NCBI GenBank assembly: GCA_964035545.1
Contig: OZ037770.1
Span: 4,941,662 to 5,005,661, forward strand
Direction: 5' to 3'
DNA: 64,000 nucleotides
Source: Bugula neritina
Taxonomy: Eukaryota; Bryozoa; Gymnolaemata; Cheilostomatida; Bugulidae
Positions within the stretch are counted from its first letter, which is position 1. Every line of letters begins with the position of its first letter. The notes beneath the pieces were generated by a model that had not been told where the DNA came from, searched no databases, and was given only the letters and a program-made list of their open reading frames with translations. This document shows positions 4,366-50,781 of the stretch, piece by piece. Position numbers and translations under genes: made by a program.

Positions 4366-4379
4366 CTTTGATGTACACT

Positions 4380-24674: not shown

Positions 24675-24758
24675 AGTGCATCCAAGATGGAGACTGAAAA
24701 TGCTGGAACTTAACCACCGGCAATAGAAGGTGAGCGTAGAGACAATGCTGTAGAGACA

Positions 24759-25640: not shown

Positions 25641-27412
25641 AACCCCCAGGGAAGAAGAAACGCAGGTCACCCAGACAAATACCGCGTACTGGCGACCAAC
25701 AGTGGCAACAGCCACGACGGACCAGCAAGGGGCTTCGCCCCGTGGCTGCCTTTTCTATGCCTCTTCACAACAGATTCACAGGGCTACAAGTCCAAGAATC
25801 TGGATGGGAGCCCACAAAGGTAGCCGGGAATCTAGCCTCGGCACCCCCGAGGCCTACCTACCACCGCCCCAAGAGACTTCCTTCGCGACCCAAAGCGAGG
25901 GAGGTACTCCCTGCGAGAGTAAGGCCTGAAGAGAGAGTTCAGGTGCAGCCCCATGGGAACAGCTATTTCTTGCCCGGTAAACTGGAAGGCAAAGCTGTTA
26001 CGTTCCTCATTGATTCGGGCTGTACCACAAACCTCTTAAGCCGCCAACTCTTCGACACCCTCAGTGCTAGGGTCAGGGGCGAGATGGAATCATACGAAGG
26101 GGAATACGGCACCCTAGCTGACGGGTCGTGCCTTCCCTTCTATGGTATAATTGAGCTCACGGGACGAGTCCGTGATCAAACGATCCAAGAGACATTCATC
26201 GTCAGTCAGCTCAAGGAGGATGCTATCCTCGGGATGCCGTTCCTAAAAAGGCACGGATGTCACATAGATTTTAGCAGATCTGCCATGATGATGTCCGGCG
26301 GGAACTCGCCTGCGTCGACAAGTTCGGCCGCCCTCTAGTGGGAGGTGTGCAAGTGGTACGCAACCGTATCATACCAGGCCGCTCCCGGGCTACCATTCAC
26401 TGCAGGGTGAATAATAGCCGGATCTCTGGACTCGGGGTAGTTGAAGGCGCGCACGAAAAGATCCAACTTGCCAGCAGTCTGAATCAGCTGACTGAGCAAG
26501 GGGAGATCTTAGTGCAGTGCGTCAACCCCTTTACCGAGCCTATCAAGCTCCCGGCTGGGTCGATGCTGGGCCGTTTTCACTCTGTTCAGGAGGAAGACGT
26601 AGGCCCGTCGCTGGGTGATGCGACAGAGGCACTCCCTCAGTGCCCTACTCAAGGGCAAGGGGCAGTCCCCGCACATCTCCGGGAGTTGTATGACACAGCC
26701 TGTAGCGGCTGCGCGGGACGGTTTGTGGAAGTGGAAGGTGCTGCCTTTCGGGTTGACCTCCGCCCCAGCCACCTTCCAGAGGCTGATGGAGCAAGTCCTC
26801 AGCGGGCTCCATTGGAAGACACTGCTGATCTACGTCGATGATGTCATCGTGATCTCCCCAGATTTCGAGACACATGTCAGTCGTCTGCAGGATGTCTTTG
26901 AGAGACTCCGAGGTGCCGGTCTTAAGCTCAAGCCTTCTAAGTGCGCTCTATTGCAGCCAGAGGTTAAGTACCTGGGGCACGTTGTCGGTCGAAACGGCGT
27001 GGCAACGGATCCCGAGAAGGTACGGGCAGTAGAAGACTGGGTCACCCCCCAAGACTTGACCGGACTCCGGGCTTTCTTGGGGCTGGTAGGGTATTACAGG
27101 CAATACATACCAGACTTTGCGGGCATAGCACAGCCGTTAAACCGGCTCACCGCAAAGGGAGTGACGTGGCAGTGGACCCCAGTCGAACAAGAAGCGTTCG
27201 ACCGCCTCAAGGGCTGCCTACTAACGGCGCCCATCTTGGCCTACCCAGACCCCACTCTGGAGTACATCCTCGACACGGACGCCAGTGACCAAAATGTTGG
27301 CGCTGTGCTGTCACAAGTGCAGGAAGGCCGAGAAGTAGTAGTAGCCTACTACAGCAAGTCTCTCTCACCCACTGAAATTACTGCACTACCCGCAAGGAGC
27401 TGCTGGCAGTAA
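25595..27412 (+). pseudogene. pol: pol, protease to RNase H part, with two frameshifts and a 470-nt deletion
   Basis: The aspartic protease (LIDSGCTTNLLS, near 26010-26045, then ILGMPFLKRHG) is intact up to about 26290. A 1-nt loss relative to the left element then shifts the frame, and reading continues at 26338 in the protease-RT connector. At 26715/26716 the RT fingers and part of the palm are gone. The remaining RT (LPFGLTSAPATFQRLM, YVDD at 26831-26842, YLGHVVG) and RNase H begin in a third frame. A 4-nt loss near 27374 ends it with a stop at 27410-27412. Only 2 bp of CG are shared at the deletion junction, as expected for a template jump or end joining. No active RT can come from this copy. 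Confidence 0.92.
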
Positions 27413-27420
27413 TAAAGTCA

Positions 27421-29151
27421 GTGAAGCACTTCAGACCATACCTATACGGCAGGAAGTTCCGGCTGCGTACGGATCATGCCTCGCTGATCTGGTTGTGCAA
27501 GAGAGCAGAGCCCTCTAGTCAGGTCGCCCGGTGGCTCGAAATCCTAGCTGAATTCTCATACCGGATCGAACATCGACCGGGCAAGAGACACAGCAATGCG
27601 GATGGGTTGAGTCGCCGACCTGACGGAGGTTGCAAACAGTGTCTCAACATCGAGAGGAGGGATGGAGGTCCCCCGCGATGCGAGTTGGAGACGCTGGCTC
27701 ATCACGGAGCACCGTTTGACTGGGACCAAGGTCAACTCAGGCAAAGAGTTGATGAGTCACCGGAGGATGTACAAAACCTCCGCGCCAACCCTGTACTGGC
27801 CGGTAATGTTCGAGAGCTGAAGAAGCTCCAAGAAGAGCTGCCTGGAGTCGTGGCAGACATATACCGGGCCAAAAGGGAAGGGCGACGACCCAGCGAGGAA
27901 CGCATACGACAGGGATGCGCCGAGTTCCGGCTATACTGTCAGCGTTGGGACTCGCTGCGGATCGGGCAGGATGGGTTACTAACCATCTCTCTAGCTGCCA
28001 GCGACAGACACCCGGAAAGGAAGAGGGTAGTCTGCCCCACGGCCATCCGCCGTGAGTTGATTTGGGATACTCACAAACAGGCCCACGCAGGGGTCAAGAG
28101 AGTGATGTCCAAATTACGACTCCGGTGGTATTGGCCACAAATGGAGCGTGACGTCCGGCTCAGAGTCAAACAGTGTGAGATCTGCCAGGCCAGTAAGCAT
28201 AGCCGCCCCCCTGGTGAAGCAGGACGGCGGAGGCTATATGCTGGTAGGCCCTGGCAAGTAGTCGCTGTAGACCTGGTTGGACCCATGCCCCTGACCCCCA
28301 GAGGCAATAATTGGATCCTAGTACTAACCGACCACTTTACTAGGTGGGCGGATGCTCTGGCTATCCCAGATGCGTCAGCCCCAACAGTGGCCAGGGCACT
28401 AGACCAACATGTATTCTGTTATTTTGGGCTCCCCGAACAGATACACTCTGATCAAGGCGCTCAATTCCAGTCCCAACTGATGAGCGACCTTTGTCACCTC
28501 TGGGGAGTAAATCAGAGCAGGACCACCCCCTACCACCCTCAAGGTAACGGGGTGGTGGAGCGCAACAACCGGATGCTAGGTGATGCACTCCGGAGTCTCC
28601 TCCTTGGACGAGGTCAAGAGGAATGGGATACGGTGTTGCCGCAAGTCATGCGTGCATACCGTAGCACCCCACACACCAGTACTGGTGAGACCCCAAACCT
28701 CTTGATGCTCGGGAGAGAGACTCGTGTCCCTGACCATCTCACCTATCACGTTCCAGAGCAAGACAACTCGGTTCACGAGTATGCCAGTGAACTAGTGGAA
28801 CGGATGAAGGCCGCACACGATATACTGCGCCAACAGCAGTGGAAGGTGCGGCACGATGATTCCGATGAACCACTTCTCTATCAAATGGGAGATAAGGTGT
28901 GGATGGTCAATTACCGTAGGCGTCGTGGACAGGCTGATAAACTGAAGCCTGAGTTCGTAGGCCCTTACGTGGTCGTCGAGGCTATGCCCAATCATACGTA
29001 CAAGATTGAGCGCTCAGGACAGGTGTCTATCCAGAATGAGTCTCGCTTGAAACCGTATTGGGCTAGCCCCGACGGAGTGGGAGAAGCCCCCCCCGTTGTT
29101 AGAGCCCAGGAGGCAGACAACAACGCGCGGGCGACGGCGGCATGGACCTGA
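27421..29151 (+). pseudogene. pol: pol, RNase H end and integrase, open reading frame detached from RT
   Basis: A 576-codon open frame begins within RNase H (FRLRTDHASLIWL) and covers the integrase: the H..H/C..C zinc-binding segment (HKQAHAGVKR.., CEICQASK), the DDE core (VAVDLVGP, HSDQGAQF, NGVVERNN) and a C-terminal chromatin-side domain (GDKVWMVNYRR, KPEFVGPYVV). The sequence is nearly identical to the minus-strand element at 1-1300. The ATG at 27421 is internal to pol, so a separate protein would not normally be made. The family's usual C-terminal tail continues in another frame from about 29100, so a small indel probably lies at 29100-29150. Confidence 0.9.
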
Positions 29152-29686
29152 ATACGAAGTGGTCATACCGCGGGAAGAGAACTTGGTGAGAGAGGAGCGG
29201 CAGCTTTTGTCAACAGAAGCGTGTCCGCCACCGCCAAGTCTAATTCCATCACTTCCAGAAACCGAACCGGTTCCAGAAGTGCAAACCCCCACGGAGGGAG
29301 GGGCTCCGTCCGGAGAACAAGAAGAGGTGACCGCTAACGGTGAAGTAGAGACGCCATTAGAGGCCCCTACTAACGAACCGGCAAGCGTGTCACCCCCCCT
29401 AGAAAGGGGACAGCGTACGAGGCAACCCCCCGCATACTTGAAGGACTTCATATGCGACTGCGTTAAAAGCGGCGTGTATGAAAGTCTAGGGGAAAACCGT
29501 ACAAGAAAAGTATCAAGCAAATGTGGGAGTTGTCAACACCACGGAAATATCAACTTTTGTATCGGCGGAAATAGAAACAAAATTCATCCGCCGGGTGCAC
29601 AAAGTCTTAATCACGCACCCCAACCACGTTGCTCGATCTTTTCATACGCTGATGCAGTCAAGAGTAGACGTGTTTCTAAGCAGTAG
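29102..29686 (+). pseudogene. C-terminal tail of pol in a shifted frame
   Basis: An open frame rich in Pro, Glu, Ser and Thr ends with RTRQPPAYLKDFICD, the pattern often found at the very end of animal gypsy pol proteins. It overlaps the integrase stop in a +1 frame and is most simply the original tail separated by an indel. After the LKDF motif the sequence is not recognisable. Confidence 0.6.
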
Positions 29687-31499: not shown

Positions 31500-32197
31500 A
31501 TGGCAACGGCTGGTGAGTGAAGTTAAATACTATTTTATTCACTTATATATGGAGAGTAGAAATATTTAACCTCTGAAGCTATGTTGATGTTATGCCCAAA
31601 CCATTTAATATATATCTATAAAACTATTTGATTATCATTACTTCCTATAATACTGTTTTATGTCACTAATTAGCGTAATACTGTGAAAATAGAACAATAG
31701 GTAAAATTATGCTAGCAGTTGGGTTAGAGTTGTCTTATCTCAACATAATAAACACTGAGCTATAAACTATATATTGAGTGATTATTTCGAAATAATTTAT
31801 TACTATAGAATAAAATATATGTTATATAGTTATATACAGCTATGAAAACTGAAATCCACCATATCATAAATATATTCAAGGGGTAGATGGCAGGTGTTAG
31901 AATGATAGACACCACCTGCTATAAGCACTGTGTAATAATCACACTATCACTGTATGGTGTTACAGAGAATATGAGAATCTGGTTCAGACATTCGGGTCAG
32001 CCTCTTGTAAGCTGGGAGGATGTACTGAAAGGTACTACCAAGTCATATGCTACTGCTGAGGTAAAACGTGAAGTTGGGAGATATGATATCACAGCTCTGA
32101 AACTGGAGGGGACAATTTCAAGTAACATTGGAAAGATTGCTGGTAAAGCCAGGTGTCTATGTGTTTCTAACCTCAATGACAGAGCAAGTCTGGACAA
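31500..32197 (+). other. first exons of the LRR-Roc-caspase gene
   Basis: Exon 1 (31500-31512) is GCC ATG GCA ACG GCT G followed by the donor GTGAGTG. It has a good start context and phase 1. Exon 2 (31894-32197) follows GGCAG and supplies about 101 residues (for example VTENMRIWFRHSGQPLVSWE, SNIGKIAGKARCLCVSNLND). It ends GACAA/GTTAGT in phase 2, which fits the repeat exons exactly. I do not recognise the domain. An alternative start is the in-frame ATG at 31887, seven bases before the acceptor cut, if exon 1 is not used. Confidence 0.6.
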
Positions 32198-35100
32198 GTT
32201 AGTGTCTATTACAATAGCTGTATAATTGCTAAATGAGCTCATTTGTGTTATCAATTCAATAATAACAGATAAATTTTGCAGTTACTATTAACAGATAGCT
32301 GTATTTTACTGACAATCATGCACAATTATCAAATCTTTCTTAGCTTCTTGCCTTAACCACTTTAACTATCCATTGCTAAAATGATACACTATATATAGCA
32401 ATACTTGGTAAGCATTATATCAACATGTGAATTTTTGAATGTTTGAAATAATAACAGATTTCGCAAACCTCTCAGGTAGAGTAGATAATTTACAGCCCAC
32501 CATATTCATTATGTTTAAAAGCACAAAGCTATAGATTGTGATTTGCTTGAGATTATATTGTATTAGAGTTTCTCAAAACTTGAATATAACCATGTTTTAA
32601 TCATTTGGCATCACATACTCTAATGTTATAAACCTTAGTTAACAAATAATGTAGCACCCACTTGTACTTTACTAGTATCTATTTCTCATTAAATGCTTAT
32701 TAGCTTTCTGTATTTTACCCCGAATACACCTTGTCGGAATATATTTGTTTCTTGGATATTTTACTTGATTGGATATACAAGTAGTATATACAGTATATAA
32801 CATTATCCTGATACAGTGGATTACATATATTATGTACCTTTTATTACAGTTTATGTCAGCTGACTCAGTTAGAGAAATTAGACATAGGATGGAATTTTCT
32901 CTATACAGTACCAGAAGTTGTGTCATCATTCACATCACTTAAAGAGTTGAACATGTGGAGCTGTAAATTATCTAATCTACCTGAGAGGTCTGTTAGTCAC
33001 AATACTCTTTCTGTGTCAGAAATTCAATCACTCACATCTTTACATGCTTGTCAATTATTGCTAGAGTATATAATCCTACATTGTTATGTTCGAAGGCCTT
33101 ACAATTTTTTTTTAGTAGTTTTTCACATCCTGTGAATAACCCAGTTTCAAGGTATGAGATTGTATGGTATTATGCCACAAGACCTTTTTGTAATTTATAA
33201 CAAACAGCCATCTATAGTTTACTGGCAATCATGCCAAGTTTCGAATCTTTCTTAGCTTCTTGCCTTAACCACTTTACCTATCCATTGCTGGAATGATTTT
33301 GTTTTCTGCATTTTTACCTGGCTGACTACGCTTCAGCAATATAGTCTATACAGTGTATATTATTATCACACAGTAGACTACATATCTCTTACCCTTTATG
33401 ATTATACAGTCTATGTCAGCTGACTCAGTTAGAGGAACTATACATAGGATGGAATCCTCTCTACACAGTACCAGAAGTTGTGTCATCATTCACATCACTT
33501 GAAGAGTTGGATATGTGGGACTGTGATTTATCTACTCTACCTGAGAGGTCTGTTAGTCACAATACTCTTTCCGTTTCAGAAAGTCAATCACTCACATCTT
33601 CACATGCTTGTCAATTATTGCTAGAGTATATTATCCTACATTGTTATGTTCGAAGGCCTTACAATATTTTTCTAAGTTTTCTAAAGCATAAAGCTATAGA
33701 TTGTAATTTGTTTGAGATTATATTGTATTAGAGTTTCTCAAAACTTGAAAATAAACTTGTTTTAATCTTTTGGCATTACATACTCTAATGGTATAAACCT
33801 TCCTTAACAAATAATATAGGACCCACTTGTACTTTACTAGTATCTATTTCCCATTAAATGCTTATTAGCTTTTTGTATTTTACCCTCAATGTGCCTTGTG
33901 GGAATGAATTGGTTTCTTAGATATTTTACCTGATTGGATATACAAGTAGTATATACAGTATATAATATATTATCCTGATAGAGTGGATTACATATATTAT
34001 GTACTTTTTATTACAGTTTATGTCAGCTGACTCAGTTAAAGAAGCTGAACATAGCAAATAATCCTCTCAACACAGTACCAGAAGTTGTGTCATCACTCAC
34101 ATCACTTAAGGAGTTGAATATGTTGGACTGTAAATTATTTGCTCTACCTGAGAGGTTTGTGGAGTCTTTTTTTTATTTCAAACATTCAATAATTCACATT
34201 TTGATATAATGCTTACCAAGTATTGCTAAATAGTGTACCATTATGTACCGTTAAAAAGCACAAAGCTGTAGATTGTAATTTGCTTGAGATTATATTATAT
34301 TAAATTTTCTCGAAACTTGAAAATAACCATGTTTTAATCATTTGGTATTACACACTCTAATGGTATAAACCTTCTTTAACAAATAATGTAGCACCCACTT
34401 GTAGTTTACTAGTATCTATTTCCCATTAAATGCTTATTAGCTTTCTGTAGTTTACTTTGAATATGCCTTGTCGGAATAAATTTGTTTCTTGGATATTTTA
34501 CCTGATTGGATATACAAGTAGTATATACAGTATATAATATTACCCTGATACAGTGGATTACATATATTATGTACCTTTTATTACAGTCTATGTCAGCTGA
34601 CTCAGTTAGAGAAACTAAACATAAGATGGAATCCTCTCAACACAGTACCAGAAGTTGTGTCATCACTCACATCACTTGAAGAGTTGAAAATGGAGAGCTG
34701 TAACTTATCTACTCTACCTGAGAGGTTTGTGGAACACAGTCCTAAGTTATTCAATAATTCAACATTTCACATAAATTTATATGCCTACCATTTCTTTCTA
34801 AAGTGTATATAACCCAATTCTGCTATGTTAAAAACTCTAAAATGTTTCTTTTTTAAATTATCTCGTAGTTTGCCATAACCTTGAAATATCATCAGTAATT
34901 TATGGTTGTATAACATTGAATATTATTATGCCACAAGACCTTTTTGCAATTACATGTAATTAACAAACAGCCATCTACAGTTTACTGGCAACCATGTCAA
35001 TTATCGAATCTTCCTTAGCTTCTTGCCTTAATCACTTTGACTATCCATTGCTGGAATTATTGTGTTTTCTGCATTTTTTACCTGGCTGACTACGCTTAAG

Positions 35101-38100
35101 CAATATAGTCTATACAGTGTATAATATTATCACACAGTAGACTACATATATCTTAGCCTTTATGATTATACAGTCTATGTCAGCTGACTCAGTTAGAGAA
35201 ACTAAACATAAGATGGAATCCTCTCAACACAGTACCAGAAGTTGTGTCATCACTCACATCACTTAAAGAGTTGAATATGGGTAGCTGTAACTTATCTACT
35301 CTACCTGAGAGGTTTGTGGAACACAGTCCTAAGTTATTCAATAGTTCAACATTTCACATAAATTTATATGCCTACCATTTCTTTCTAAAGTGTATATAAC
35401 CCCATTCTGCTATGTTAAAAACTCTAAAATGTTTCTTTTTAAAATTATCTCGTAGTTTGCCATAACCTTGAAATATCATCAGTAATTTATGGTTGTATAA
35501 CATTGAATATTATTATGCCGCAAGACCTTTTTGCAATTACATGTAATTAACAAACAGCCATCTACAGTTTACTGGCAACCATGTCAATTATCGAATCTTC
35601 CTTAGCTTCTTGCCTTAATCACTTTGACTATCCATTGCTGGAATTATTGTGTTTTCTGCATTTTTTACCTGGCTGACTACGCTTAAGCAATATAGTCTAT
35701 ACAGTGTATAATATTATCACACAGTAGACTACATATATCTTAGCCTTTATGATTATACAGTCTATGTCAGCTGACTCAGTTAGAGAAACTAAACATAAGA
35801 TGGAATCCTCTCAACACAGTACCAGAAGTTGTGTCATCACTCACATCACTTAAAGAGTTGATTATGTGGAGCTGTCAATTATCTGCTCTACCTGAGAGGT
35901 TTGTGGAGTCTTTTATTATTTCAATCATTCAATAATTCACATTTTGATATAATGCTTACCAAGTATTGCTAAATAGTGTACCATTATGTACCGTTAAAAA
36001 GCATAAAGCTATAAATTGTAATTTGCTTGAGTATATATTATATTAAAGTTTCTCGAAACTTGAAAATAAACATCTTTTAATCATTTGGCATTACATTTCC
36101 TATTGCTATAAAACCTTCGTTAACAAATAATATAGCACCCACTTGTAGTTTACTAGTATCTATTCCCCATTAAATGCTTATTAGCTTTTTGTATTTTACT
36201 TTGAATATGCCTTGTCGGAATAAATTTGTTTCTTGGATATTTTACCTGATTGAATACACAAGTATAATATACAGTATATATAATATTATCCTGATACAGT
36301 GGATTACATATATTATGTACCTTTTATTACAGTCTATGTCAGCTGACTCAGTTAGAGAAGCTGAACATAGTGAAGAATCCTCTCAACACAATACCAGAAG
36401 TTGTGTCATCACTCTTATCACTTAAAGAGTTGAATATGAGGAGCTGTGAATTATCTGCTCTACCTGCGAGGTTTGTGGAACACAGTCTTTCTGGTTTCAA
36501 ACATTCAATAATTCACATGTTGATATAATGCTTACCAAGTATTGCTAATTAGTATGTCACTATGTATTGTTGAAAAGCATAAAGCTATAAATTACAATTT
36601 TCTTGAGGCTATATGATATTAGAGTTTCGCAAAACTTAAAAATAAACATGTTTTAATTATCACACATTACATTTCCTATTGCTATAAAACCTTCTTTAAC
36701 AGATAATATAGCACACACTTGTAACTATAGTTACTAGTATCTATTTCCGATTAAATGTTTATTGGCCTAGCTTTTATATTTTACTTTGAATATACCTTGT
36801 CGGAATAAATTTGTTTCTTGCATATTTTACCTGATTGAATACAGAAGTATAGTACATACTCTATATGTGACCAGTCGCGACAAAACCGGGGATGTGGCGG
36901 CGTTTATTAAGTGTAGTAAATGAAGGTTTAATTTGGAAATACTTAAATTTGAAATTAATTTCCAATTTTTAGATTTTAGACTTTTCTAGTGCAAAAAAAT
37001 CTAAGGATTTCAAAAATCATACTTTCGTAAGCATTTGATGATTCCTTCAGCTCTAAAATTGCATTTAACGTTGGTAACTAAGGCTTTCAATTTTTTAAAT
37101 GATGAAAAAATTGCGAAGTTATCGATTAAAGAAAGAAGACAATTTTAGTCACTTTCATAGCATGAGATCTTGCGAATTTATTTTTTATCAAATGAATTTA
37201 GCTTACACCTCTCTCTTCGTACTGTCAGAACCATCATATTTAAAATCGAAGGCTAGTTTTAGTTTTTCATCGTGTTCCATCCAAAGTTAGCTTTTAAGTT
37301 ACTGAGCTGTTTTGCCCTTTGGTGATAAATGCTGAACTTAATCTTTATCTTTAGCGTTCAAGCTTGAAAACCACAACAATACAGGTAATTATACTCAAAA
37401 CAATCATTTACGCTACTAACTTAGAATTGTTGCCAGGATTATTTGTAGTTATCAATTTAATAATATTTATACTATGACTAGGAGTAGGAGTCTGTCTTAG
37501 TCTATTCTATTCTATACTACTACTAGTAACTATTTAAATGACTTTCACTATGACTCACAGTTTGAGGTACGGTTACTCATAATGATAATCATAATGACTA
37601 TTATTCATGATTTACTGATACTGGTATTTGGTAGTAAAACCAAATGTAACTCATTAATAATACTAATAGTAATAGTATAACTTATAACTATAAGTATAAG
37701 TAATTAATAATTATAAATTCACTATTACCATTAGTATTACTATTACTTATTACTTATTAGTATTACTGTATTATTATTTGGGTCTGACTCTGAGTTTTGC
37801 CTTTGCTATTAAAACTTGATACTCATACTGATAGTATTATATTTATTGATTTATTCTATAGTTAATATTTCAATTTACATTAGACTTACTCTTACTCTTA
37901 GTTACTTTTAGCCTCTGTCTTAGATTTTGTCAATACAGTTACTGATTACTATTACTATTAGTATTAACATTTGGCCTACTAGTACTAGTCAAACTACCAG
38001 TTCCTTTTGTGATTTTTAAATTAGCTCAAAGTTTGATTTAAAATATAATGATAAAATCTTTATCACATTATGCAGGCTTACAGTTAGTGTTACTATCAAA

Positions 38101-41100
38101 ACTCAATTGATAATCATATTTATATTCATAAAAGCATCACCTATAATTAAATTGAAATGATAAATGTGACTAAATGTAAATGATTATAATGATGAAATAT
38201 TAATGCGAGTTCATGATGATTCTATAGTTGACTTGACTTAGTTTTTCAGTAACTTACTTTTAGTCTTATTTAGTGAGTAGTAACACTAACTGAATGCATA
38301 AATAGTCTAAACTTTTTAATTTTATTATAAGATGAGCAAAAATTTATTCATATTTTAAAGTAATTCATTGAATTCAAATTGATTTTATAGTAAATGTCTT
38401 CAATAGGTTCAGTTGCACTTAGCTAGCTTTTTTACTCAATTAAATGCCCGAGTGGTTAATAGTTATCTAAAGACATTGCTTCAAAATTGCCAATTGCAGA
38501 TATGCTAGATATTCAAGTGCATAATGTGTAATTTTACTGATAATACTATGTTAATATAGAATAATCCGATATTCTGTACATTTTAGAAAATGCACTTGTG
38601 AGGGCATTAGAGTGAAGACTTATACCTACACAACTCTACTACCTATCAATCTAATACTTCTAATGTAGACACTCCGAATTATGGCTTGCAAGGTTATGGC
38701 TTCTGCTTATTTCATTCATAAAAAGGTTTGCAGTCTTTTAATGATGTGCTTGAAAATTATCAAGCATTTTTTTAATTTAAATTGTTCTGTTTAATTCAAT
38801 AAATTTAAACGTTGATGAAATGCAGGATCACAATTAACTACTGCCATAATAGTACTACAAGAGTGTTCAGCCAACTAAATTTTTATAATATAACTGGGTA
38901 TAATTTCTAATCAAGCTACCGTTTCCTTTTGTTATTTAAAAAAAAGTCAACATTGTACTTTCAGCTCTGGAATAGACAATAAGTGGGTAGATTTGCAGAA
39001 TGGAGGTCAAGTAGCAGCATCTATAATTGCTAGAAAATCAACTGATGATAGTGATGAAGCTTTTGCCACATACATGATGTTATGTGTCCATACTCCGTAA
39101 ACTCATATTATGAAGACCAAGAAAGTAGAAAGATGATAAGTGCCTTCTCTGCAAAAACCGTAGAAGCTATCTAATTTTCTTTTCTTGATAAGAGTTAATT
39201 CAAGCATAATGGTTGTATCCAGGCTGGATTTTTTACTGCATTCAATTGGTTTTTTAAAATAATGTATTTGATGTTTTTTTTAAATGTGAATATTAATGCC
39301 TAATAAAACTCAAAAGTTCGAATAGCTGATTTTTGTTTATAATATTTTCAACATCTCAGCCAAATCAATTGCTAAATTTAGTTGCTGTTAGAGATTATAA
39401 AGATATTTATAAATGAACCTCGCATGATCTCATAATAGTCAAATAATTTTCTCATAAGTGTTCTACTCATAAAGCAATAATTATGAAACAGCACAGCTCA
39501 ATAGCTGCAGTTTGATATATTACAGAATATATTAGAGGAAAGGGAGGTATTCAATGTATAAGAGGAAGCAGCTGCCATTTTGTTTTATATGATTTCCTGC
39601 TGACTTGGATGCCTAATTTAAATATCTCAACACACAAACTTGCTGAAACATCTTCTTTGCTGGAATTGTTAAACCTTTCAACCATTAAACAAAGTAAAAA
39701 GCAAATTGGCAAATAAATTAGACAAAAAGTTTGACGGCCATATTTGACCTAATTTCATGTTGAGGCAGCATGAAATTTAGTTTAACAGAAAGCCCAAACT
39801 TTCACAATTATTTTGATACCAAATTTGTCACTATTCCTGTTATACAAAGACCCGTTGCTAAGGCTTGTAAATTGTAAACAAATAATTCTCAACTTATTCT
39901 AGAGTTGCCAACTTTAAACGCGATTTTCTCGAAACAGTAATTTAGAAATTCTAAAAACGTTGAGGTTTTTAAATACTGATATCTCGAGTTCTACTTATGC
40001 TAGAGACTTCAAATGAAGTGCAAAATGTTCAGAAAAGTCTGCTCTATCACTCTATAGTGATAACTAGATATCCAACATTTTATATACATCCCTTGCTTTG
40101 TGGTGCCAGGTCACATATACAGTATAATATAATATTATTCTGATAGATTGGACTATATATATGTACATTTTCTATACTTTTTATATTACAGCTTATGTCA
40201 GCTGATTCAGTTAGAGAAACTACACATAGCAGATAATTTTCTCTACACAGTACCAGAAGTTGTGTCATCACTCACATCACTTAAAGAGTTGTATATGTGG
40301 AACTGTAAATTATCTACTCTACCTGAGAGGTTTGTGGAACACAGTCTTTCTTGTTTCAAATACTCAATAATTCACAGGTTGATATAATGCTTACCATGTA
40401 TTGGGAATTAGTATATCACTATGTATTGTTGAATAGCATAATGCTATAAATTATTATTTTCTTGAGGCTATATGATATTAGAGTTTCTCAAAACTTGAAA
40501 TAAATATGTTTCAGTTATCTGGCATTAAATTTCCTATTGCTATAAAACGTTCTTCAACAAATACTATATAGCACCCACTTGTGGTTTACTAGAATCTATT
40601 TCACATTAAATGTCTTTTACTTTGAATATGCCTTGTCGCAATAAATTTGTCTTTTTTCTGCATGTTATACCTGATTGAATACACAAGTATAGTAGACAGA
40701 GTACGTACTATTATCCTGGTACAGTAAATTACATATATTATGCACTTTATATTACAGTCTATGTCAACTGAATCAGTTAGAGAAACTAGACATAGCAAGT
40801 AATTCGCTCTACATGGTACCAGAAGTTGTGTCATCACTCACATCACTCAAAGAGTTGGATATGTGGAGCTGTACATTATCTACTCTACCTGAGAGGTTTG
40901 TGGAACACAGTCTTTCTTGTTTCAAACACTCAATAATTCACACATTGATATAATGCTTACCCAGTATTGCTAATTAGTATGTCACTATGTGTTGTTGAAA
41001 AGCATAGAGTTATAAATTACATATTTCTTGAGGCTATATGGTATTAGAGTTTCTGAAAACTTGAAAATAAATATGTTTCAGTTATCTGGCATTACAAATT

Positions 41101-44100
41101 TCTTATTGCTATAAAACCTTTTTAACAAATAATATAGCACCTACTTGTAGTTTACTATAGTGTGTATTTCTCATCAAATGGTTATTAGAGCCTTCTGTAC
41201 TGTACTTTGAATAATATGCCTTAGAGTAATAACTTTGCTACTTGGATATTTTACTTGATTGAATATGCAGTGTTTGTTATGATACAATAGATTAAATATA
41301 TCACATACTTTATATTACAGCCTGTGCCAGCTGACTCAGTTAGAGAAACTAAACATAGGAGGGAATCCTCTCAACACAGTACCAGAAGTTGTGTCATCAC
41401 TCACATCACTTGAAGAGTTGAATATGGAGATATGTAACTTATCTACTCTACCTGAGAGGTTTGTGTGCCACAACAAATTTTATATATCACTTTTAACATT
41501 CAACAATTGTTATTTTGAAGCAGAATTTCAACACAGTAAGTACTACATTGAGATGTATATACTTTTTCTCTGCAAACCTCCATATGAATCTTCCCGTTGC
41601 TGGGCATATTGTCAATTAGCACACTATCTAGAAGTTTCCTCTGCTTCACAAGTTATTTTATAGTATTTCTATATCTTTTTGAATATTTCCCATGATAGGT
41701 TGACTGGGCTGTTTTTCAGAAGTCGTTTTAATAACTCTTTTCATTATATTATAACTATAGCTACTTCTGTACACATAATTGGTATATATTATATTATTAT
41801 TATAGTAAAACAGTTTCTTATTACTGTCTGATTGAATGCACAAGTGCTATATACAGTACATAATATAATCCTGATACAGTGAATTACATATATTGTGCGC
41901 TTTATATTACAGTCTATGTAAGCTGACTCAGTTAGAGAAACTAGACATAAGTGGAAATCCTCTCAACACAGTACCAGATGTTGTGTCCTCACTCACATCA
42001 CTTAAAGAGTTGGATATGAGGAGATGTAACTTATCTAATCTACCTGAGAGGTTTGTGTGTCACAGTCTTTCTTGTTTCAAATACTCAATAATTCACAGGT
42101 TGATATAATGCTTACCATGTATTTGGAATTAGTATATCACTATGTATTGTTGAATAGCATAATGCTATAAATTATTATTTTCTTGAGGCTATATGATATT
42201 AGAGTTTCTCAAAAGTTGAAAGTAAATATGTTTCAGTTATTTGGCATTACATTTCCTAATGCTATAAAACCTTCTTCAACAAATACTATAGCACCCACTT
42301 GTAGTTTACTAGAATATATTTCACATTAAAATCTTATTAGCTCATTCGCTTATTTAACTTTGAATTTGCCTTGTTGCAATAGTTTTGTTCCTTGGATATT
42401 TTACCTGATTGAATAGACAAGTATAGTATACACAGTATATAATATTATCCTGATACAGTAGATTACATATATTGTGCGCTTTATATTACAGTCTATGTAA
42501 GCTAACTCAGTTAAAGAAACTAGGCATAAGTGGTAATCCTCTCAACACAGTACCAGAAGTTGTGTCATCACTCACATCAATTAAAAAGTTGGATATGTGG
42601 AGCTGTGGATTATCTACTCTACCTGAGAGGTTTGTGTCATCCTAATGTTTGAAACATTCAATAATTCACATGTTGATATAATGCTTATACCAAGTATTGC
42701 TAATTAGTATGTCACTATGTATTGTTGAAAAGCATAAAGCTATAAATTAGAATTTCTTTGAGGCTATATTGTATTGGAGTTTCTCAAAACTTGAAAATAA
42801 ATATGTTTCAGTTATCTGGCATTGAATTTCCTATTGCTATAAAACCTTCTTCAACAAATACTAAAGCACCCACTTGTAGTTCACTAGAATTTTTTTCACA
42901 TTAAATGTCTTTTACTTTGAATATGCCTTGTCATACTAAATTTGTGTTTTTTTTTTCATGTTATACCTGATTGAAGACACCAGTATAGTATACGGAGTAC
43001 ATACTATTATCCTGATACAGTAGACTACATATATTACACACTTTATATTACAGTCTGTGCCAGCTGACTCAGTTAGAGAAACTACACATAAGAGACAATC
43101 CTCTCAACACAGTACCAGAAGTTGTGTCATCACTCACATCACTTAAAGAGTTGGATATGAACAACTGTAAATTATCTACGCTACCTGAGAGGTTTGTGTC
43201 ATCTTAATGTTTGAAACATTCAATAATTCACAATTTGATATAATGCCTACCAACTACCAAGTAGTGCTAATTATTATGCCATCATGTATCGTTGAAAAGG
43301 ATATAGCTACAATAGATTACAATTTTCTTGAGACTATATGACATTAAAGTTTCTCAAAACTTTAATTAAATAAACATGTTTTAATCATCTGGCATTACAT
43401 TCTCTATTGCTATAAACCTTTCTTTAACAAATAATTTAGCACCCACTTGAAGTTTACTAGAATATACTTCACATTAAATGCTTATTAGCTTTCTGTATTT
43501 TACTTTGAATTTGTTTTGTTGCAATACATTTGTTTCTTGGATGTTTTATCTACTTGAATATGCAAGTATAGTATACAGAGTACATCCTTTAATCCTGATA
43601 CAGTGGATTACATGTATTATACACTTTATATTGCAGTCTATGTCAGCTGACTCAGTTAGAGAAACTGGACATAGGATGGAATCCTCTCAACACAGTACCA
43701 GAAGTTGTGTCATCACTCACATCACTTAAAGAGTTGGATATGTGGAGATGTAACTTATCTACTCTACCTGAGAGGTTTGTGTGCCACAACAAATTTTATA
43801 TATCACTTTTAACATTCAATAGCTATTATTTCATAGCAATATTTCAACACAGTAAATACTACATTAGGATGCAAACCTGCAAACCTACATATGAATCTCA
43901 CCGTTTCTGGGGATATTGTCAATTAACACACTATCTATAGAAGTTTCCTCAACTTCACAAATTATTTTATAGTATTTCAATATCTTTTTTGAAATGCTTA
44001 CCATGATAGGTTGACTATGCTTTTCTTCAGAAATCGTTTTAATAACTCTTTTCAATATATTTTAACTATAGCTACTTCTGTATACAAAATTAGTTTTTAT

Positions 44101-47100
44101 TATATTATTTTAATAACATATTATCTCATTATTTTCAAATTAGTCAGAAAACCACTTCCTTATATTTTCAATGACATCATATATCACATACTTAACTCAA
44201 TAAACTGTATTGTGTAAGGCTCATTAGTAACAATGCATGGTGGATTATATAGTATGTTTTACTTAAATAATCACATTTGAGGTACAAATATTTCGACATG
44301 AAAGATCTGACATTATATTGCTAACCTAAGAAGAGAAAACAAATCATATATTGCCACTTTGTTTTTTGCATGCTCTACTTTAGTTGTCTCTCTCAACTCT
44401 TGGTGTAGTAGAAGCCAATTTTTATTCTATTCCTGTTCTCAAATAACCAATGAATATATTTCTTTATATCTAATTCACATTTTTAAGTGACTAATTAACT
44501 GGCCTTTAAAAGTGTAACATGTTCCTTGCAAGACGATGACTTTCCAGAGTTGTATTCTATCATAGTGAAATAATTCACAGCTTCTACTTTCTGTCTAAAA
44601 ATATGCTGCATTTATTAGAATACTTAGTGGGAAGTTGTGTCAGAAGTATTTTTTTTTATTGAAACTACTTTAATGCCTTGCGTAGGTGTTTCAGAGCTGT
44701 ACTGTGTTCCTATTTGATGATAAATTACATGTATTATGGCACATAAAACAATATTCCTTATAATTATAACATCCATATAGTAGAATATCAGTGTGAACAG
44801 TTACTCAGTGATCAGAAGTGTCAGAAGTATTTTATTTTTACTTCACATTACTTTAATGCCTTATGCAGCTGCCACAAAGCTGTAGCCTACCATGTTCCTA
44901 TTTGCTGATAACTGTATCATGGCACATACTAGAAATTTTCTTCTCTGTATTATAAAATATTATTCCTTCTAGTAGAATACTTGTGTGAACAGTTACTCAG
45001 TGATCTGCCATATAGAAAAAGATTTCTGTATGATAGTATTCTGTCTAGGGTGTGTTTTTATGACAGTACTTAGTACAAATGTAGCACTTTTCTTACCAAA
45101 TATACTTATAATTATACTGTTATATATATCTCTATGAAATACTTAAAACTTTATGCATCGTATATATATAACATGATACCCGTACATAATTGTAACTTAG
45201 ACATACTTGTTTTCTTTCCTAAATTAATGTACTAATTCAAGGTATTGTATATAAACTTGTTATAGCAACTGCAACTCAGTACTATATTATGTGTAATTAT
45301 TGTTATACTAATATTGGGTATCTTTATGAAAACTATTATATCAATTATCTGTATAGTTAGGTCTAATAATAGAAATATTATATATTGTTAGAATACAGAG
45401 ATTAAAGAAGTTACAGAAACTCAACATTTCAAGGAATAAATTCACCAGTCTCCCATCTTCAGTATGTGCATTGAGCAATCTGCACATACTGAATATATCC
45501 TACAACGAATTTATGGAATCTTTGAGCCCTGAGATACTACAGCTAACACATCTTAGGACCTTCGATACATATAGCTGTGATGCTCTTACATCTCCTCCAC
45601 TGGAAGTCTGTAAAAGAGGACTCGATGCTGTGCGACAATACTACACAGACTTGGCTAAAGGTGCTGGTAGAAATCTTCCATTTGCTACAATAGTGGTGTT
45701 GGGGAACACCATGGCAGGTAAAACCAGTCTAATCAGAACATTACAGAGCACTGACAAGAAAAGAGTTTTAACTGACAGAAGTCCTAATGCAGAGTATGAT
45801 GAGACCACAAAAGTGTTCAATGTGGAAGAGGTGGAGGTGGATGGTACAACTCTTCGTCTCATAGATATGGGAGGCCAGGAGGTCTACCATATCACATACC
45901 ATTTAACACTGAGACAGAATTGTGTACCAGTAATTGTAGTCAACATGGAGCAGTATGATCAGATTTCGAAAATGTCTACAGACAGAGAGGCTGTGAGAAA
46001 GCTGGCTTTTGACTTCATGTCTCACCTCTATCTCGCTCATCCAACTCTTGGCCCACCTAAGCTTGTTTTCACACACAAAGATAAGTTTCCGAGTGAAGTT
46101 TTCCAACGGCTTCGAAAAAAGTTTCTTAAAGTTTCTGAGAAGTTATGCAAAAATATTCTTGAAGAAGAGAACAGTTTGGAAGGTGACTTTGCTCGAATTC
46201 AACATTTCACTGCATCAAACGGAAAAGTGTTCTCCAATGACAACATATATGAAGTTGGGAAATTTGACGAGTACAAGATATTTGAATCGATTAAAAAATC
46301 TCTTCTTCAAAGTTGCCAACACTTTGTGAAGCCACTTCCAAAAGTCTGGGAGGATGTCAACAACAACATTTTGTCATTACAGACCTCACATAACACCTTT
46401 GATGAAATATTGGCTATGATAAACGAAAAGCAGGATAACATTGAAGCAAAACACTTGGATACGATTATCATGTACATGCATGATTGTGGCAAAGTTCTCT
46501 GGTATAAACATATTGATGCACTCAGGCCATACATATTTCACAAGATCACGGAAATTACCAAGCTACTCTGTGTCTTGTATCATCATGATCCAGACGTCTG
46601 GCAAAGTAGAGTTGATCAGTTCCAACCGTATTTTTCAATGGAAGGAGTGAGGATTGAAAAACAAGAATTTGAAGAGTTTGTGAATTCCTTTAGAATCAAT
46701 GGCTTGATGATGAAATCTCTTCTTGTATATTTGATTTGAAAAGAAACTTCGTTCACTGGTGAAAATGATGTGAAAATTGCTGTTTGCTTGCTCAGAACAT
46801 TCCGTTTATTGTATGGCCCTTTGAATAATGATTCTGAAGATCCGTACTTCATAGTCCCTCAGTTTGCCAAAGAATCCTACAGCCTCTCCTACACTCCGCC
46901 AAAGGAGCTGATGCTTTATACCGAAACGCAGTTTAATGGTCTGGCATTACCACAGCATGTCTACCATCAGATGACGGTTGGTTTGCTGGAACTATTTGCT
47001 GACAATTCTGCCACAATACAGGTGAAGAGAAATGGAGCAAATGTCTATCAAGATAAAATATATACACAGCTGATACATGACTATGAATCTAAAAGAGTTT

Positions 47101-50100
47101 TGCTCTACGCGTCATCTGATGCAAATAATATCACCAAAGCGTGGGAAAAACTCATTTCAGTCAACAACAACATCCTCAGACATGTTATGGAAACTTGGAC
47201 TGCCAGTCGTCCAGTCACTGCCTGCATCTGTGCTCACTGCTTACTGCTAGGTGTTCTGTGCCCTAAAAAGTCTATTCATCCTAAATGGTGTTTTCGCTCC
47301 CTGATGAAACCTACACCAGTTGTCAAGAAGTGCAGCGGATCTTCAACAATCTTGTGCAATAATGAGGAGATCCCAAGAGCTCTGATTTTTCCATGTATGT
47401 ATCACTAATATTGTTTATTACTATGATTTTATAAATGGAAACTTTTGCCTACTACATAAATGATTTTCTTTACTACAAACTCTAAACAAAACCTGCTAAA
47501 AAATTTTTAAATTTGAAAATAATCAAACAAAAGGCATTATATCTCGTGTTGTAACATTCTTGCAGTGGTTCTGTCTCAACTTATGTTTAGCTACCATTTA
47601 AGTTGATTACAGTATACATAATATGTGAGCTGGTTGTAGTATATGTAGACTGCACTGTTTTATTCAGGTGAGGCATTGTCTGAGAAAGAAACCGATGAGC
47701 TCGTGAAGCTATTGACTCAACTCAAACTTCGTAAACAACAGAATGATGCAACCAGAATTGGTATATCTGTATAATACTCACTTTATCAACCTTTAATGTT
47801 ATTAAAGAATTCAGAGATCTCAATACATGCAGCAGTTCGTTTACTCTGACTAGAATTTTTAGAAAACTGATTGTTTTTGTCAAGCGATCAAGGAAATGGC
47901 AATTTTGCTATTCTTCTGTTTTTTAAATCCTGGTGTTAGCCAATCAAATCATGTGACTGCAGATGATGATGATGATCTGAGTGATCTCTCTGAAGATGAT
48001 GACAATCTGTATCCTGATGAAGACAATGAGAAAGACATGAAGTTGATACAACCCAACCTAAAGACTACCAGAAACCTGAGGATTAAGAATCTTTTCTCAA
48101 ATGCTGAACAGGTTGGTGCATCAGTTTAGGGTCATATGTTCACCTTATTCGTTAGATTCTTATGCTTGTATAACCTATTCTTAGACAGAACATTATAAAC
48201 ACATGCATCTGTAGCAAAATGATACTATTTACTGTTAGCTTTATTATTAGGCCATGTGTGCCTCAAACATGTTTAACTAGATTTACAAATATGTCAACTA
48301 ATACTATCATTTTTAGTATATTTTTATCCAGGTGTTCAGTATGACCAGAGAGAGAGGAAGAGCTCTGATAATAAACAACAAGAACTTTGTTGAAAGACCA
48401 GACTTATGCAGGGAAGGTTCAGATGCTGATGTTGAGAATATGTCTCTCATGTTGAGATCTCTCAAGTTTGATGTTGAGACACACTCAGACCTGACAGCAG
48501 AGGTATGTTGTTATGGTGAAAACAATGCGAGCACTATTTAACCATCAAGTAGATTTTCGTATATAATGTCTTGTTTGTTCTTTAACCAAATATTTTGTAA
48601 AGTTTGTAGTATATTTTAACAAAATATTTTTTTTCACATTCACTGAATTATATCTTTAATTGTACTTAAGAATTTTTCTAAAGCTGCATTGAAAATTTTG
48701 GGTCTTGTTAGTTTTTGCTCACTTTTTGGTTTTTTGTTAGGTTGATGAGAAAACTTTTTGCTCACATTGCATATGAGTCAGCTTACTTCATTTAGTACAC
48801 ACCAGGAAATTATGACCTAACATTAAAGTTTACTCATAATCCATTGAAATTTACCATACATGGTATATTTATGTGCTGATTTTAACTACGCATAACAGAA
48901 AAGGTTAGCTAGGAGGGGATTCCCCAACATTAAAGCACAGGTCATTGTCATATGCACTTATTATTTTATATGTGCGGACCGTTACGAAAAAACTGTGACT
49001 GTCTGCAAGTCCAAATTAGCTAAATAATTAAGAAAGACATGGGAAATTAAGCATAATCAAAAATCATCTTGACTATTTAGTTGTATTTATTGATATGCTA
49101 TTAGTTTTAGGCAAAAACCTATAAATATTAGCACCTAAATTGAAAAAATAGCTAAAACTGGAGATTTCGAGTGTGTACTAAATTAAGTAAAATGACCCAT
49201 AACTCTATAGCAATTATTTGACACTTTAAATGAAGTAAATTTGTTTGACTGTTTAAATTCGTTTTCAAATTTGTAGGAAATGCTGTCTGCTGTGAAGTCT
49301 GAGGTGAAAAAGGGGAAACACAAAGAGTTTGGATGTCATATACTGGTTGTTATGACTCATGGTAGAGAAGATAACTGTATCTATGGAACTGACCTCGAGA
49401 AGGTCAACCTCACTGACCTGTGTGATTTGCTCACTCCTTTGTATTTCGATGGAACAAATAGAAAACCTAAGGTTGTCATACTAGAAGCCTGCAGTGGAGG
49501 TAGTTTGTAGTATAAATTTGAACTTTTAGTTCAATGGTTGAACTAGTAAATACTCCCTGTCAGAAACTAGTCATCTAATTAATTGGCGCTTTAACATGAT
49601 TCATAGTTTGGATTGCTTGAGCAACTGGGTGTCTTGAGATTGTTTAGCTCACAATATTAAGGTCGTTGTTATGTATGTGTTACAGCAAACATTGAAGTAA
49701 GCCCAGACAGATCTGGTCTTGCAGCAGATCAAGAAGAAGAAACTGAAGCTGCCTCTTCTACACCTTCTGAAGCTAATGAAGAAGACAATGATGAATATCC
49801 TGAACCGCCAAGAAAAAGAATTAGACTCATTAGACCAGTCTCACCACCAGAACCTAGAATAGAAGAGTGTAGAACTGTACGGGATATAGATGATCTTCTT
49901 GTTCTGAAGAGTAGCGTCTGCTGTAAGTATAGCAAGAGAAAGTTGTTCATTGGTTTGATAAATGTGCAGCTACAGTTTTTTTCAATCTAAAAGTCTGTTT
50001 CCTAAATTTAATCTGACCATGCTATATGTAATCTTTTTCTTGTTCTTCGTAAATTGCGAGTTAATGTTCAAAATCAAACAGAATTTAGAAAATTTCAGGC

Positions 50101-50781
50101 TTGCTTTGTCTACACCATGCTTTGAGTTTCATTTAATTTTATTGCAGCATCAAAGAGACATCCTGAGTATGGATCTCCTATGATTAGAGCTCTAGTATCT
50201 TCAATCTACAAACATGCCTGTCATCGTGATCTCTACACCATCTTTCAGCAGGTGAGTTTAAAATGATAATTTTGTCAATTTCTACTTGTATATAGAAATA
50301 TTTTTATGTTTAGCTGTGTGATAATTTACAATTTGCATGTCCAATGAATAAAATATAATGTAAATTAGGTAGCTTCTTAAAACGTGCTCGTATTTTTACT
50401 AATTTATATTTCTCCCACTGTGCCTGTTGTAAAGGTTAAAGCCCAACCTCAAGCTTTTCTTTAATATATTCTATAGTGGTAGCAGACAACTCTCAGGATC
50501 TACTTGCTTAGATTGAATATGAATAGGAAAGCCTAGTTTAGCAGCTGAAAGTTGTACCTTATCACAGCTATAAGTAGTTAGTTAGAACACAGTCTTACTA
50601 GTCATTACTTACTCTACAGGTGGACACTAAACTAGTGAAAAAACTGTATGCAGATGAAGATTCAGAGAGAAGCAGAAATTTGGTTGCAATCTGGAATACC
50701 CTTCCATTCAGTAAAAGACTTTACCTGTTTCCTGGCTTCGATGGGTTTAATAGAGAGGACAACTCCTCACTCAGCACATAA
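31500..50781 (+). CDS. LRR-Roc-COR-caspase fusion protein, 24 exons, one internal TGA
   Basis: Exons: 31500-31512, 31894-32197, fourteen 138-nt repeat exons from 32850 to 43774, 45392-47394, 47668-47760, 47963-48111, 48332-48502, 49277-49499, 49686-49922, 50148-50251, 50620-50781. The phases (1, then 2 throughout the repeats, then 1,1,0,0,1,1,0) match at every junction, and the total is 5391 nt, exactly 1797 codons. Domains: short N-terminal unit, 28 leucine-rich repeats, Roc GTPase, COR, acidic linker, caspase p20 and p10. Roco proteins are GTPase switches that dimerise through COR; caspases are Asp-specific proteases activated by proximity. A receptor that turns on its own protease is inferred. 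In-frame TGA at 46737-46739 means the copy may be a pseudogene, an allele, or read through. A split into two genes between COR and caspase is the main alternative. Confidence 0.72.
32850..43774 (+). repeat. tandem array of 14 LRR exons (138 nt each, phase 2-2)
   Basis: Exons: 32850-32987, 33410-33547, 34017-34154, 34587-34724, 35174-35311, 35761-35898, 36333-36470, 40192-40329, 40758-40895, 41321-41458, 41913-42050, 42492-42629, 43054-43191, 43637-43774. Each follows an ATTACAG-type acceptor and ends at CCTGAGAG/GT (CCTGCGAG in the seventh). Each encodes exactly two 23-residue repeats of the form LCQLTQLEKLxIxxNxLxTV and SSLTSLKELxMxxCxLxxLP. Introns are also near-copies of one another. Because length is 46 codons and phase is symmetric, any number can be skipped or gained without changing frame. 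Differences concentrate at the x positions on the predicted binding strand. Confidence 0.92.
36866..40113. mobile_element. 3.25-kb insert with terminal inverted repeats in an LRR-array intron
   Basis: The left end reads TGTGACCAGTCGCGACAAAA. The right end is its imperfect inverse (complement TGTGACCTGGCACCACAAAG). TATA flanks both sides (36862-36865, 40114-40117), consistent with a TA or TATA target duplication. The array's repeat pattern is interrupted exactly here and resumes after it. No transposase is recognisable; inside are trinucleotide runs (37480-37990) and an exon-like scrap at 38963-39100 (acceptor, then WVDLQNGGQVAASIIARK). Probably a non-autonomous DNA transposon. Confidence 0.72.
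44637..45003. repeat. local tandem duplication, two units of about 180 bp
   Basis: Blocks starting GTGTCAGAAGTATTTT at 44637 and 44818 run in parallel (ACTTTAATGCCTT, GTTCCTATTTG, GGCACATA, GTAGAATA, GTGTGAACAGTTACTCAGTGATC) with scattered differences. They lie in the intron before the Roc-COR exon. Confidence 0.7.
45392..47394 (+). other. Roc-COR exon of the fusion gene
   Basis: After a TATTGTTAG acceptor come about three more leucine-rich repeats (LQKLNISRNKFTSLPSSV). The Roc GTPase follows, with P-loop GNTMAGKTSL near 45706, switch II DMGGQEVY near 45867 and a G4-type THKDK near 46072. The COR dimerisation region runs to the end (YFIVPQFAKE, QFNGLALPQHVYHQM), with a Cys-rich tail (CICAHC). 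The frame is the same throughout except for TGA at 46737-46739 (after LLVYLI, before KETSFTGEND), 33 codons upstream of a conserved COR block. CGA (Arg) to TGA by one transition would explain it. The donor CCAT/GTATGT at 47394 leaves phase 1. Confidence 0.88.
47668..48111 (+). other. linker exons between COR and caspase
   Basis: Exon 47668-47760 (31 codons, phase 1-1) encodes a charged helix-like stretch (SEKETDELVKLLTQLKLRKQ). Exon 47963-48111 follows CTGCAG and encodes an Asp/Glu-rich run (DDDDLSDLSEDDDNLYPDED) and a basic end. Such acidic, Asp-rich linkers are possible caspase cleavage sites. These exons connect the two halves in frame and are the key link in the fusion model. No stop, poly-A signal or new start with a promoter is obvious between them. 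Confidence 0.6.
48332..50781 (+). other. caspase domain exons (p20 and p10) of the fusion gene
   Basis: Five exons. 48332-48502 has the p20 start (RGRALIINNKNF, GSDADVENMSLMLRSLKFDV). 49277-49499 has the catalytic His in VMTHGRED and the catalytic Cys in LEACSGG, where most caspases have QACRG or QACQG. 49686-49922 is an acidic intersubunit linker with several Asp (GLAADQEEE, EEDNDEYPEP), then the p10 start DIDDLLVLKSS. 50148-50251 (EYGSPMIRALVSSIYKHA) and 50620-50781 (SKRLYLFPGFDG, stop TAA) complete p10. The His-Cys pair is present, so a protease is plausible. The Glu before the catalytic Cys may alter the P1 pocket, although Asp preference depends on several residues. AATAAA candidates lie near 51136 and 51349. 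Confidence 0.88.

Follow-up and report, generated by a model that had tools for sequence, protein, structure and literature searches.

Here, we describe a gene family of the cheilostome bryozoan Bugula neritina whose members combine leucine-rich repeats (LRRs), a Roc-COR GTPase module and a C-terminal caspase domain, based on one copy in a 64,000-nucleotide stretch of chromosome 6 (positions 4,941,662-5,005,661 of assembly tzBugNeri2.1; genome 215.8 Mb), hereafter the window. The family comprises about 102 members or more, and the LRR-Roc-COR-caspase fusion is real and occurs above chance. With a probability that we put at roughly 60%, it is an expanded family of one-piece receptors, immune or involved in self/non-self discrimination, that would activate their own caspase through the Roc-COR module, the copy in the window being a degenerating member.

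A protein search with the window Roc-COR region produced at least 94 matches in the genome and the second exon of the caspase p20 subunit 132, the window being included in both counts. The genome-search counts are lower bounds, given that 94 of 171 first-look Roc-COR candidates and 150 of 790 LRR candidates were scored. For 92 of the 94 Roc-COR exons, a caspase exon lies on the same strand no more than 12 kb downstream (median distance 2.3 kb, each with a partner of its own), compared with a mean of 5.2 and at most 18 in 500 shifts of the caspases; only 2 of the 94 have a caspase exon within 12 kb upstream or on the opposite strand. For the two unlinked Roc-COR exons, a caspase exon lies at 12.2 and 16.1 kb. 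Eight further caspase exons on C7 are located 2.0-2.8 kb downstream of COR-A matches and, added to the 94 Roc-COR exons, yield the family size given above. Unlinked halves among paralogs, which the initial annotation had named as grounds for abandoning a single gene, were thus not the pattern found. The N-terminal exon follows the same arrangement: 50 of its 54 genome matches lie within 60 kb upstream, on the same strand, of a Roc-COR or COR-A match, with 46 distinct partners. Forty of the 132 caspase exons lack a partner among the 94, a number that falls to 30 without the eight C7 exons and the pair at 12.2 and 16.1 kb; caspases outside this architecture probably exist too. Clusters of partnerless caspase exons are found at C9:9322752-9412877 and C2:30512948-30549371.

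In addition, six predicted proteins of Watersipora subatra, four of which are named after MFHAS1 by NCBI, unite LRRs, a Roc match below threshold and a caspase within a single chain. Paralog linkage and these single proteins together establish that the fusion is more than a chance association. Apart from the Roc-COR fragment P0001, a search with a spliced paralog matched in full only in Watersipora, and a search with the Watersipora protein P0050 returned itself and five more, all from Watersipora, by a method that needs shared 5-residue words, so that members in other phyla are possible. In the predicted model of P0052, Foldseek matches LRRK1, LRRK2 and CtRoco and, over the C-terminal part, caspases; the caspase p20 is modeled with moderate confidence and p10 poorly. 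Because the whole-model TM-scores are low (query-normalized 0.40 at best, root-mean-square deviation often 7-15), the predicted resemblance holds domain by domain and not for the whole arrangement. VIA-align of the same model listed 50 matches (Roc-COR, LRR and GTPase chains), with no caspase among them. Two of the Watersipora proteins, P0051 and P0053, begin MGAKSS and MGCSLS, which we take to resemble N-myristoylation signals, so that membrane anchoring of these two is possible; no comparable start was recognized upstream in the window.

The two halves of the gene appear to have diverged partly independently. Among genes on C1 whose Roc-COR is 64-69% identical to that of the window, two caspase types are found, 63-70% and 36-42% identical, which looks like caspase module swapping between paralogs. 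Across 68 pairs (71 of the 94 Roc-COR matches used), Roc and caspase identities to the window correlate with a Spearman coefficient of 0.68, and because this congruence is partial, the halves seem not always to have moved together. One Roc-COR relative, C1:33885166-33886500 (-), lies in a stop-free frame of 2363 amino acids, where 680-750 is usual.

The window gene had been modeled in the initial annotation as 24 exons on the plus strand: 31500-31512, 31894-32197, fourteen 138-nt LRR exons (32850 to 43774) and the exons from 45392-47394 to 50620-50781 listed below. This model was reproduced exactly, with 5391 nt or 1797 codons, consistent phases and GT-AG borders at 23 of 23 introns; the exon structure thus stands, but an internal stop codon had been missed and the first exon is doubtful. 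The features of the gene, as revised, are the following.

31966..32197, + strand: N-terminal exon (NMRIWFRHSGQP... domain), start probably 31966 or 31968
32850-32987, 33410-33547, 34017-34154, 34587-34724, + strand: LRR cassette exons 1-4, first block of seven (tblastn, splice sites)
35174-35311, 35761-35898, 36333-36470, + strand: LRR cassette exons 5-7, first block of seven (tblastn, splice sites)
40192-40329, 40758-40895, 41321-41458, 41913-42050, + strand: LRR cassette exons 8-11, second block of seven (tblastn, splice sites)
42492-42629, 43054-43191, 43637-43774, + strand: LRR cassette exons 12-14, second block of seven (tblastn, splice sites)
45392..47394, + strand: last LRRs, Roc, COR-A and COR-B (Pfam; single exon in paralogs)
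46737..46739, + strand: in-frame TGA, codon 1199 of 1797, between COR-A and COR-B (reading of the spliced model)
47668..47760, + strand: linker exon 1, phase 1-1, 'LSEKETDELVKLLTQL' (splice sites)
47963..48111, + strand: linker exon 2, acidic, Asp-rich (splice sites, Watersipora alignment)
48332..48502, + strand: caspase p20, first exon (Pfam on the spliced sequence)
49277..49499, + strand: caspase p20, second exon, with His, S1-position Glu and catalytic Cys (motifs, Pfam, PDB alignment)
49686..49922, + strand: intersubunit linker and start of p10 (alignment to Watersipora P0052)
50148..50251, + strand: caspase p10 (alignment to Watersipora P0052)
50620..50781, + strand: last exon, C-terminal part of p10 (KRLYLFPGF) and stop codon (alignment to Watersipora P0052)

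Both the exon 31500-31512 and the extension of the second exon to 31894 are questionable. An acceptor (TTACAG or TTTCAG, ending at 31965 in the window) is common to the window and three paralogs, two of which have an in-frame stop directly upstream of it (read by eye), and on these grounds the N-terminal exon probably starts at 31966 or 31968. It shares 30% identity with the N-terminal end of Watersipora P0051 (E 1e-8); the longer version of the initial annotation, which was the one scored, had no match in Pfam.

All 14 LRR exons are phase 2-2 symmetric cassettes of 138 nt, each encoding two 23-residue LRRs, and three concatenated exons of the second block match LRR_4 of Pfam at 3.4e-21. Two adjoining units of exon plus intron share 98.6% identity across 587 nt. 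Genome-wide, 150 of the 790 candidate LRR exons were scored, and all 150 match without a stop. The variation of the cassettes is concentrated at concave sites: of the 46 columns, the seven with the highest variability (39, 14, 13, 36, 11, 37 and 34) are all solvent-exposed x positions of LxLxxNxL, and the next, 42, is not. With position 16 added, these eight concave positions have a mean entropy of 1.96 bits across the 14 exons, compared with 0.23 at the other 38, and a ratio of nonsynonymous to synonymous differences (pN/pS) of 1.77, compared with 0.49 elsewhere. None of 100,000 random sets was equally extreme in entropy, a figure that is partly post hoc, the eight positions having been fixed after inspection of the column table. 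A 3.7-kb intron (36471-40191) divides the array into its two blocks, the other array introns measuring 422-469 nt; it may reflect an insertion or lost exons.

The order of domains in the window is LRR, Roc, COR and Peptidase_C14. Roc matches PF08477 with 32.7 bits (cut-off 27) at about 45690-45971 and is directly followed by COR, as in Roco proteins; COR-A reaches 18.9 bits, below the cut-off of 35.3, at about 46338-46538, and COR-B has no Pfam match in the exon 45392..47394. The region at 46.5-47.3 kb that the initial annotation had called the Roc exon is in fact COR, Roc lying at about 45.69-45.97 kb. The P-loop that it had identified, GNTMAGKT, is in place at 45702-45725 (+), accompanied by IDMGGQE and THKDK; the corresponding Roc motifs are known as the P-loop, DxGG and THxD. 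Key Roc residues, including the G and K of the P-loop, are invariant in a 42-row alignment. Roc-COR evolves under purifying selection, with a median ratio of nonsynonymous to synonymous substitution rates (dN/dS) of 0.27; the 29 paralogs nearest the window copy contributed 405 pairs to this median, one of the 406 pairs having been dropped (dS <= 0.02).

The spliced C-terminal part matches PF00656 (Peptidase_C14) with 115.9 bits (cut-off 21.4), aligns to Watersipora P0052 continuously over p20 and p10, and has animal caspases as its best PDB matches (3.9e-21, over p20). The catalytic His (MTHG, 49358-49360) and Cys (EACSG, 49490-49492) are both present, as had been proposed, and membership in the caspase fold family (C14) holds. 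The S1 position is occupied by Glu (49484-49486), where caspases have the Gln of QACxG. This Gln of the S1 pocket confers Asp specificity, whereas in metacaspases and in the paracaspase MALT1 this position is acidic and cleavage occurs after basic residues. By analogy with these enzymes, a changed cleavage specificity of the Glu-type caspases is a fair guess, and Asp specificity is not claimed. Forty p20 exons, hand-picked along the match list and including some without a Roc-COR partner, were compared, with the frame set by motif score and residues read by eye; one of them, L096, is cut before the Cys and was counted for His only. Among the 39 that reach the S1 site, the residue is Glu in 19, Gln in 14, His in 4 and Leu in 2.

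These proportions bear on a different view of the C-terminal domain, namely that it works mainly as a protease scaffold, either regulated or a decoy, whose specificity has changed, and not as an executioner of cell death. The Glu in 19 of 39 exons suits this view, as do the exons that lack the His (1 of 40) or the Cys (5 of 39), on account of which some members are probably not proteases. However, His and Cys are both retained in the window and in the rest of the sample, the closest solved structures are apoptotic caspases, and Watersipora P0050-P0054 retain the Gln (QACSG), so we consider a scaffold function unlikely for the family.

Under the receptor reading that we prefer, a full member would begin with a short N-terminal domain and continue with an LRR cassette array of variable make-up as the sensor, Roc-COR as a GTP-controlled dimerizing switch, a conserved, partly acidic linker and a C-terminal caspase domain as the executioner. 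Once such a protein is expressed, the concave face of its LRRs would recognize a microbial or non-self ligand, and binding would alter the nucleotide state or the dimer geometry of Roc-COR, such that two caspase domains would be brought together or freed; the linker between p20 and p10 might then be cut, upon which the cell would die or signal.

Several observations weigh against this reading. The replacement of Gln by Glu at the S1 position makes cleavage after Asp doubtful, and the members with a lost His or Cys count in the same direction. The Pfam scores of Roc and COR in the Watersipora proteins are below the cut-off. At the ten concave positions that were chosen first, dN/dS is only 1.05, compared with 0.68 at the others and 1.06 over all positions, and the set of eight was defined afterwards, as described above. 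The window copy stops before COR-B, and in two more of the 94 the Roc-COR match is itself interrupted by stops. Finally, in CtRoco, the GTP-bound form is a monomer, and for this reason the direction of activation assumed here, in which GTP makes dimers and dimers make active caspase, may be wrong; either the monomer or the dimer could be the active form.

The receptors could also have a role other than defence against microbes. If they served allorecognition or colony housekeeping (fusion and rejection, or polypide regression), LRR diversity would mark self, and the clustered, duplicated and LRR-variable pattern suits such a role as well as immunity. Bryozoans are colonial and are named among animals with allo-incompatibility in the part of the literature consulted (PMC8195603). 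Nothing links the family to fusion or regression, however, and although the genomic pattern is about as compatible with allorecognition as with immune defence, defence is favored and a purely colonial role seems improbable.

For the window copy itself, the uninterrupted frame of 1797 codons that had been proposed was not borne out, given the TGA at 46737-46739. The corresponding position is a sense codon in 29 of 29 aligned paralogs, which are those nearest the window copy and not a random sample, and the window copy is consequently judged to be probably a pseudogene in which ordinary translation would not reach the caspase. The window Roc-COR exon is 97% identical over 447 residues to a paralog at C6:4652740 and no second internal in-frame stop occurs in the 24 exons, so a young pseudogene is the likeliest reading. 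The comparison with this nearest paralog gives dN 0.010 and dS 0.018 with 24 changes, too few to call relaxation. Most relatives of the window copy look intact: of the 94 Roc-COR exons, that of the window included, 90 have listed frames that reach 630 residues or more, and the window's frame, with 460, is the shortest. The same single stop, together with GT-AG borders at all introns and the 97% identity to the nearest paralog, would also be compatible with a copy that still works, the TGA being an assembly error, one of two alleles or read through. A random base error is unlikely at the assembly's quality value of 53.7 (PMC11480708, seen in part), and the sense codon in all 29 paralogs argues against a working copy as well, which leaves it with a small share of the probability. 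Splicing out a 71-nt GT..AG stretch (46725-46795) was rejected as a way around the stop: it would shift the frame (71 mod 3 = 2), and relatives code through the stretch.

The least probable alternative is that two neighboring genes are involved, an LRR-Roc-COR gene ending near 47.4 kb and a caspase gene starting at 48.3 kb. The window and 7 of 8 relatives (the exception being P0050) have a Met where the caspase exon starts (VFSMTRERG in the window), which makes a short caspase isoform possible. Separate genes were rejected because the halves are linked in 92 of 94 paralogs, the caspase alignment is continuous, linker exon 1 begins mid-codon, and phase-matched linker exons are also encountered in single Watersipora proteins and, as judged by eye, among distant paralogs. 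Specifically, the two linker exons, taken jointly, align at one and the same site in each of the six Watersipora proteins, in every case better than all 500 shuffles, only the acidic part aligning in P0054; a stretch resembling linker exon 1 was recognized by eye in the distant paralog L005, and stretches resembling linker exon 2 in L008 and L005. The joining of LRR, Roc-COR and caspase proposed in the initial annotation is therefore supported for the family, with its dozens of paralogs and single Watersipora proteins, but not for the window copy, which stops after COR-A.

Among the closest counterparts in animals are the NLR inflammasomes and the Apaf-1 apoptosome, which couple an LRR or other repeat sensor to an NTPase switch and to caspase output by proximity. 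The Bugula proteins would share this sequence of sensor, switch and output and differ in that the switch is Roc-COR in place of NACHT or NB-ARC and in that the caspase resides in the same chain, so that no CARD or DED adaptor would be needed. In a six-frame, exon-by-exon search of the genome, for which, as for the searches for CARD, Death and gasdermin domains, the control genomes were prokaryotic only, NB-ARC had no match and NACHT one partial match (33 bits, cut-off 26.7); such a search can miss NACHT or NB-ARC domains split between exons, which counts against the receptor reading. The results support, without proving, that NLR-type switches are scarce in this genome, and because of this scarcity, the suggestion that these proteins would act as an apoptosome or inflammasome without adaptors gains some weight. 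There are also 4 CARD, 11 Death and 3 gasdermin matches. The best CARD match (C2:9943461-9945862, -) is followed about 1.8 kb downstream, also on this strand, by a Roc/GTPase match, and the two are perhaps one gene. The gasdermin-like matches (C2:4312189, C2:2048552 and C2:4286293) have 26.8-32.2 bits with a cut-off of 25, and the encoded proteins are possible caspase substrates. We tentatively suggest, while judging it more probably wrong than right, that about 100 LRR-Roc-COR-caspase receptors have largely replaced the bryozoan NLR inflammasome or apoptosome layer, with sensors rebuilt by LRR-cassette duplication, caspase modules swapped, and the Gln-to-Glu change at S1 bringing a new specificity in one clade.

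With the animal Roco proteins MFHAS1, LRRK1, LRRK2 and DAPK1, the Bugula proteins share the Roc-COR core and fold. MFHAS1 has no enzyme domain after COR, the LRRKs have a kinase, and DAPK1 has a kinase and a death domain; to our knowledge, none of them has a caspase.

The domain order itself has been reported from bacteria, where LRR-AP-GTPase(Roc)-COR proteins carry C-terminal effectors that include caspase (Kaur et al. 2021, PMC8195603). According to the parts of that article that were available, the bacterial conflict proteins resemble those of Bugula in their fast-evolving N-terminal LRRs, in the succession of Roc, COR and C-terminal effector and in having multiple paralogs per genome; they are predicted only and carry at least 24 effector types. 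The Bugula genes, in contrast, are animal genes with introns, in about 100 copies, and caspase is the only effector that was looked for. A second parallel is provided by brown-algal ROCO candidate immune receptors, with 111 paralogs in four species and reported alternative splicing (Teng et al. 2024, PMC11378527). In the text of that study as far as seen, they likewise have phase-2 symmetric LRR cassette exons, concave LRR sites subject to diversifying selection and many paralogs. The algal exons are 72 bp long and encode one LRR, compared with 138 nt and two LRRs in Bugula, caspase is not mentioned in the main text, and in one of the three algal groups the C-terminus carries a different peptidase domain, IPR009003 (PMC11378527). 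Among animals, the actiniarian NG1 proteins, as partly seen in PMC5094078, similarly combine LRR and Roc/Ras (with COR at a low threshold) with an immune-type effector, TIR_2 in place of the caspase of Bugula. The initial annotation's statement that no animal LRR-Roc-COR-caspase protein had been described agrees with the literature searches, yet the Watersipora models had been deposited unremarked and bacterial cases reported; no animal example was among the literature matches listed for the architecture, for bryozoan caspases and immune receptors or for bryozoan genomes. As far as these searches show, the architecture is known from bacteria, and the animal version, the size of the family and the LRR exon system have not been described.

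Elsewhere in the window, a Ty3/Gypsy-type element lies directly upstream of the N-terminal exon (24714-29686, +), with RNase H and the zinc finger and core of an integrase in 27376-29148, and an open frame at 3499-4377 (-) resembles, by eye, the first open frame of this element. Weak matches below the cut-off are found to a SUEL-type lectin (9789-10193, -; 17.5 bits, cut-off 31.4) and to proline dehydrogenase (56274-56774, -; 18.6 bits, cut-off 27). A long repeat of a 'SSQYPPLSTLLSVP'-like unit at 61606-62474 (-) is open in several frames.

The occurrence of the same domain order in bacteria, as far as PMC8195603 was seen, makes this family a candidate example of convergence, or else of ancient sharing, among immune systems, and its LRR exon arrays raise the question of invertebrate receptor diversity generated through exon duplication and splicing. 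If the receptor reading is true, B. neritina would possess animal receptors in which sensing, GTP switching and proteolytic execution are united in one chain whose foundation is Roc-COR (also the core of the Parkinson kinase LRRK2) instead of NACHT or NB-ARC, and caspase activity would be a direct read-out of the Roc-COR conformational change.

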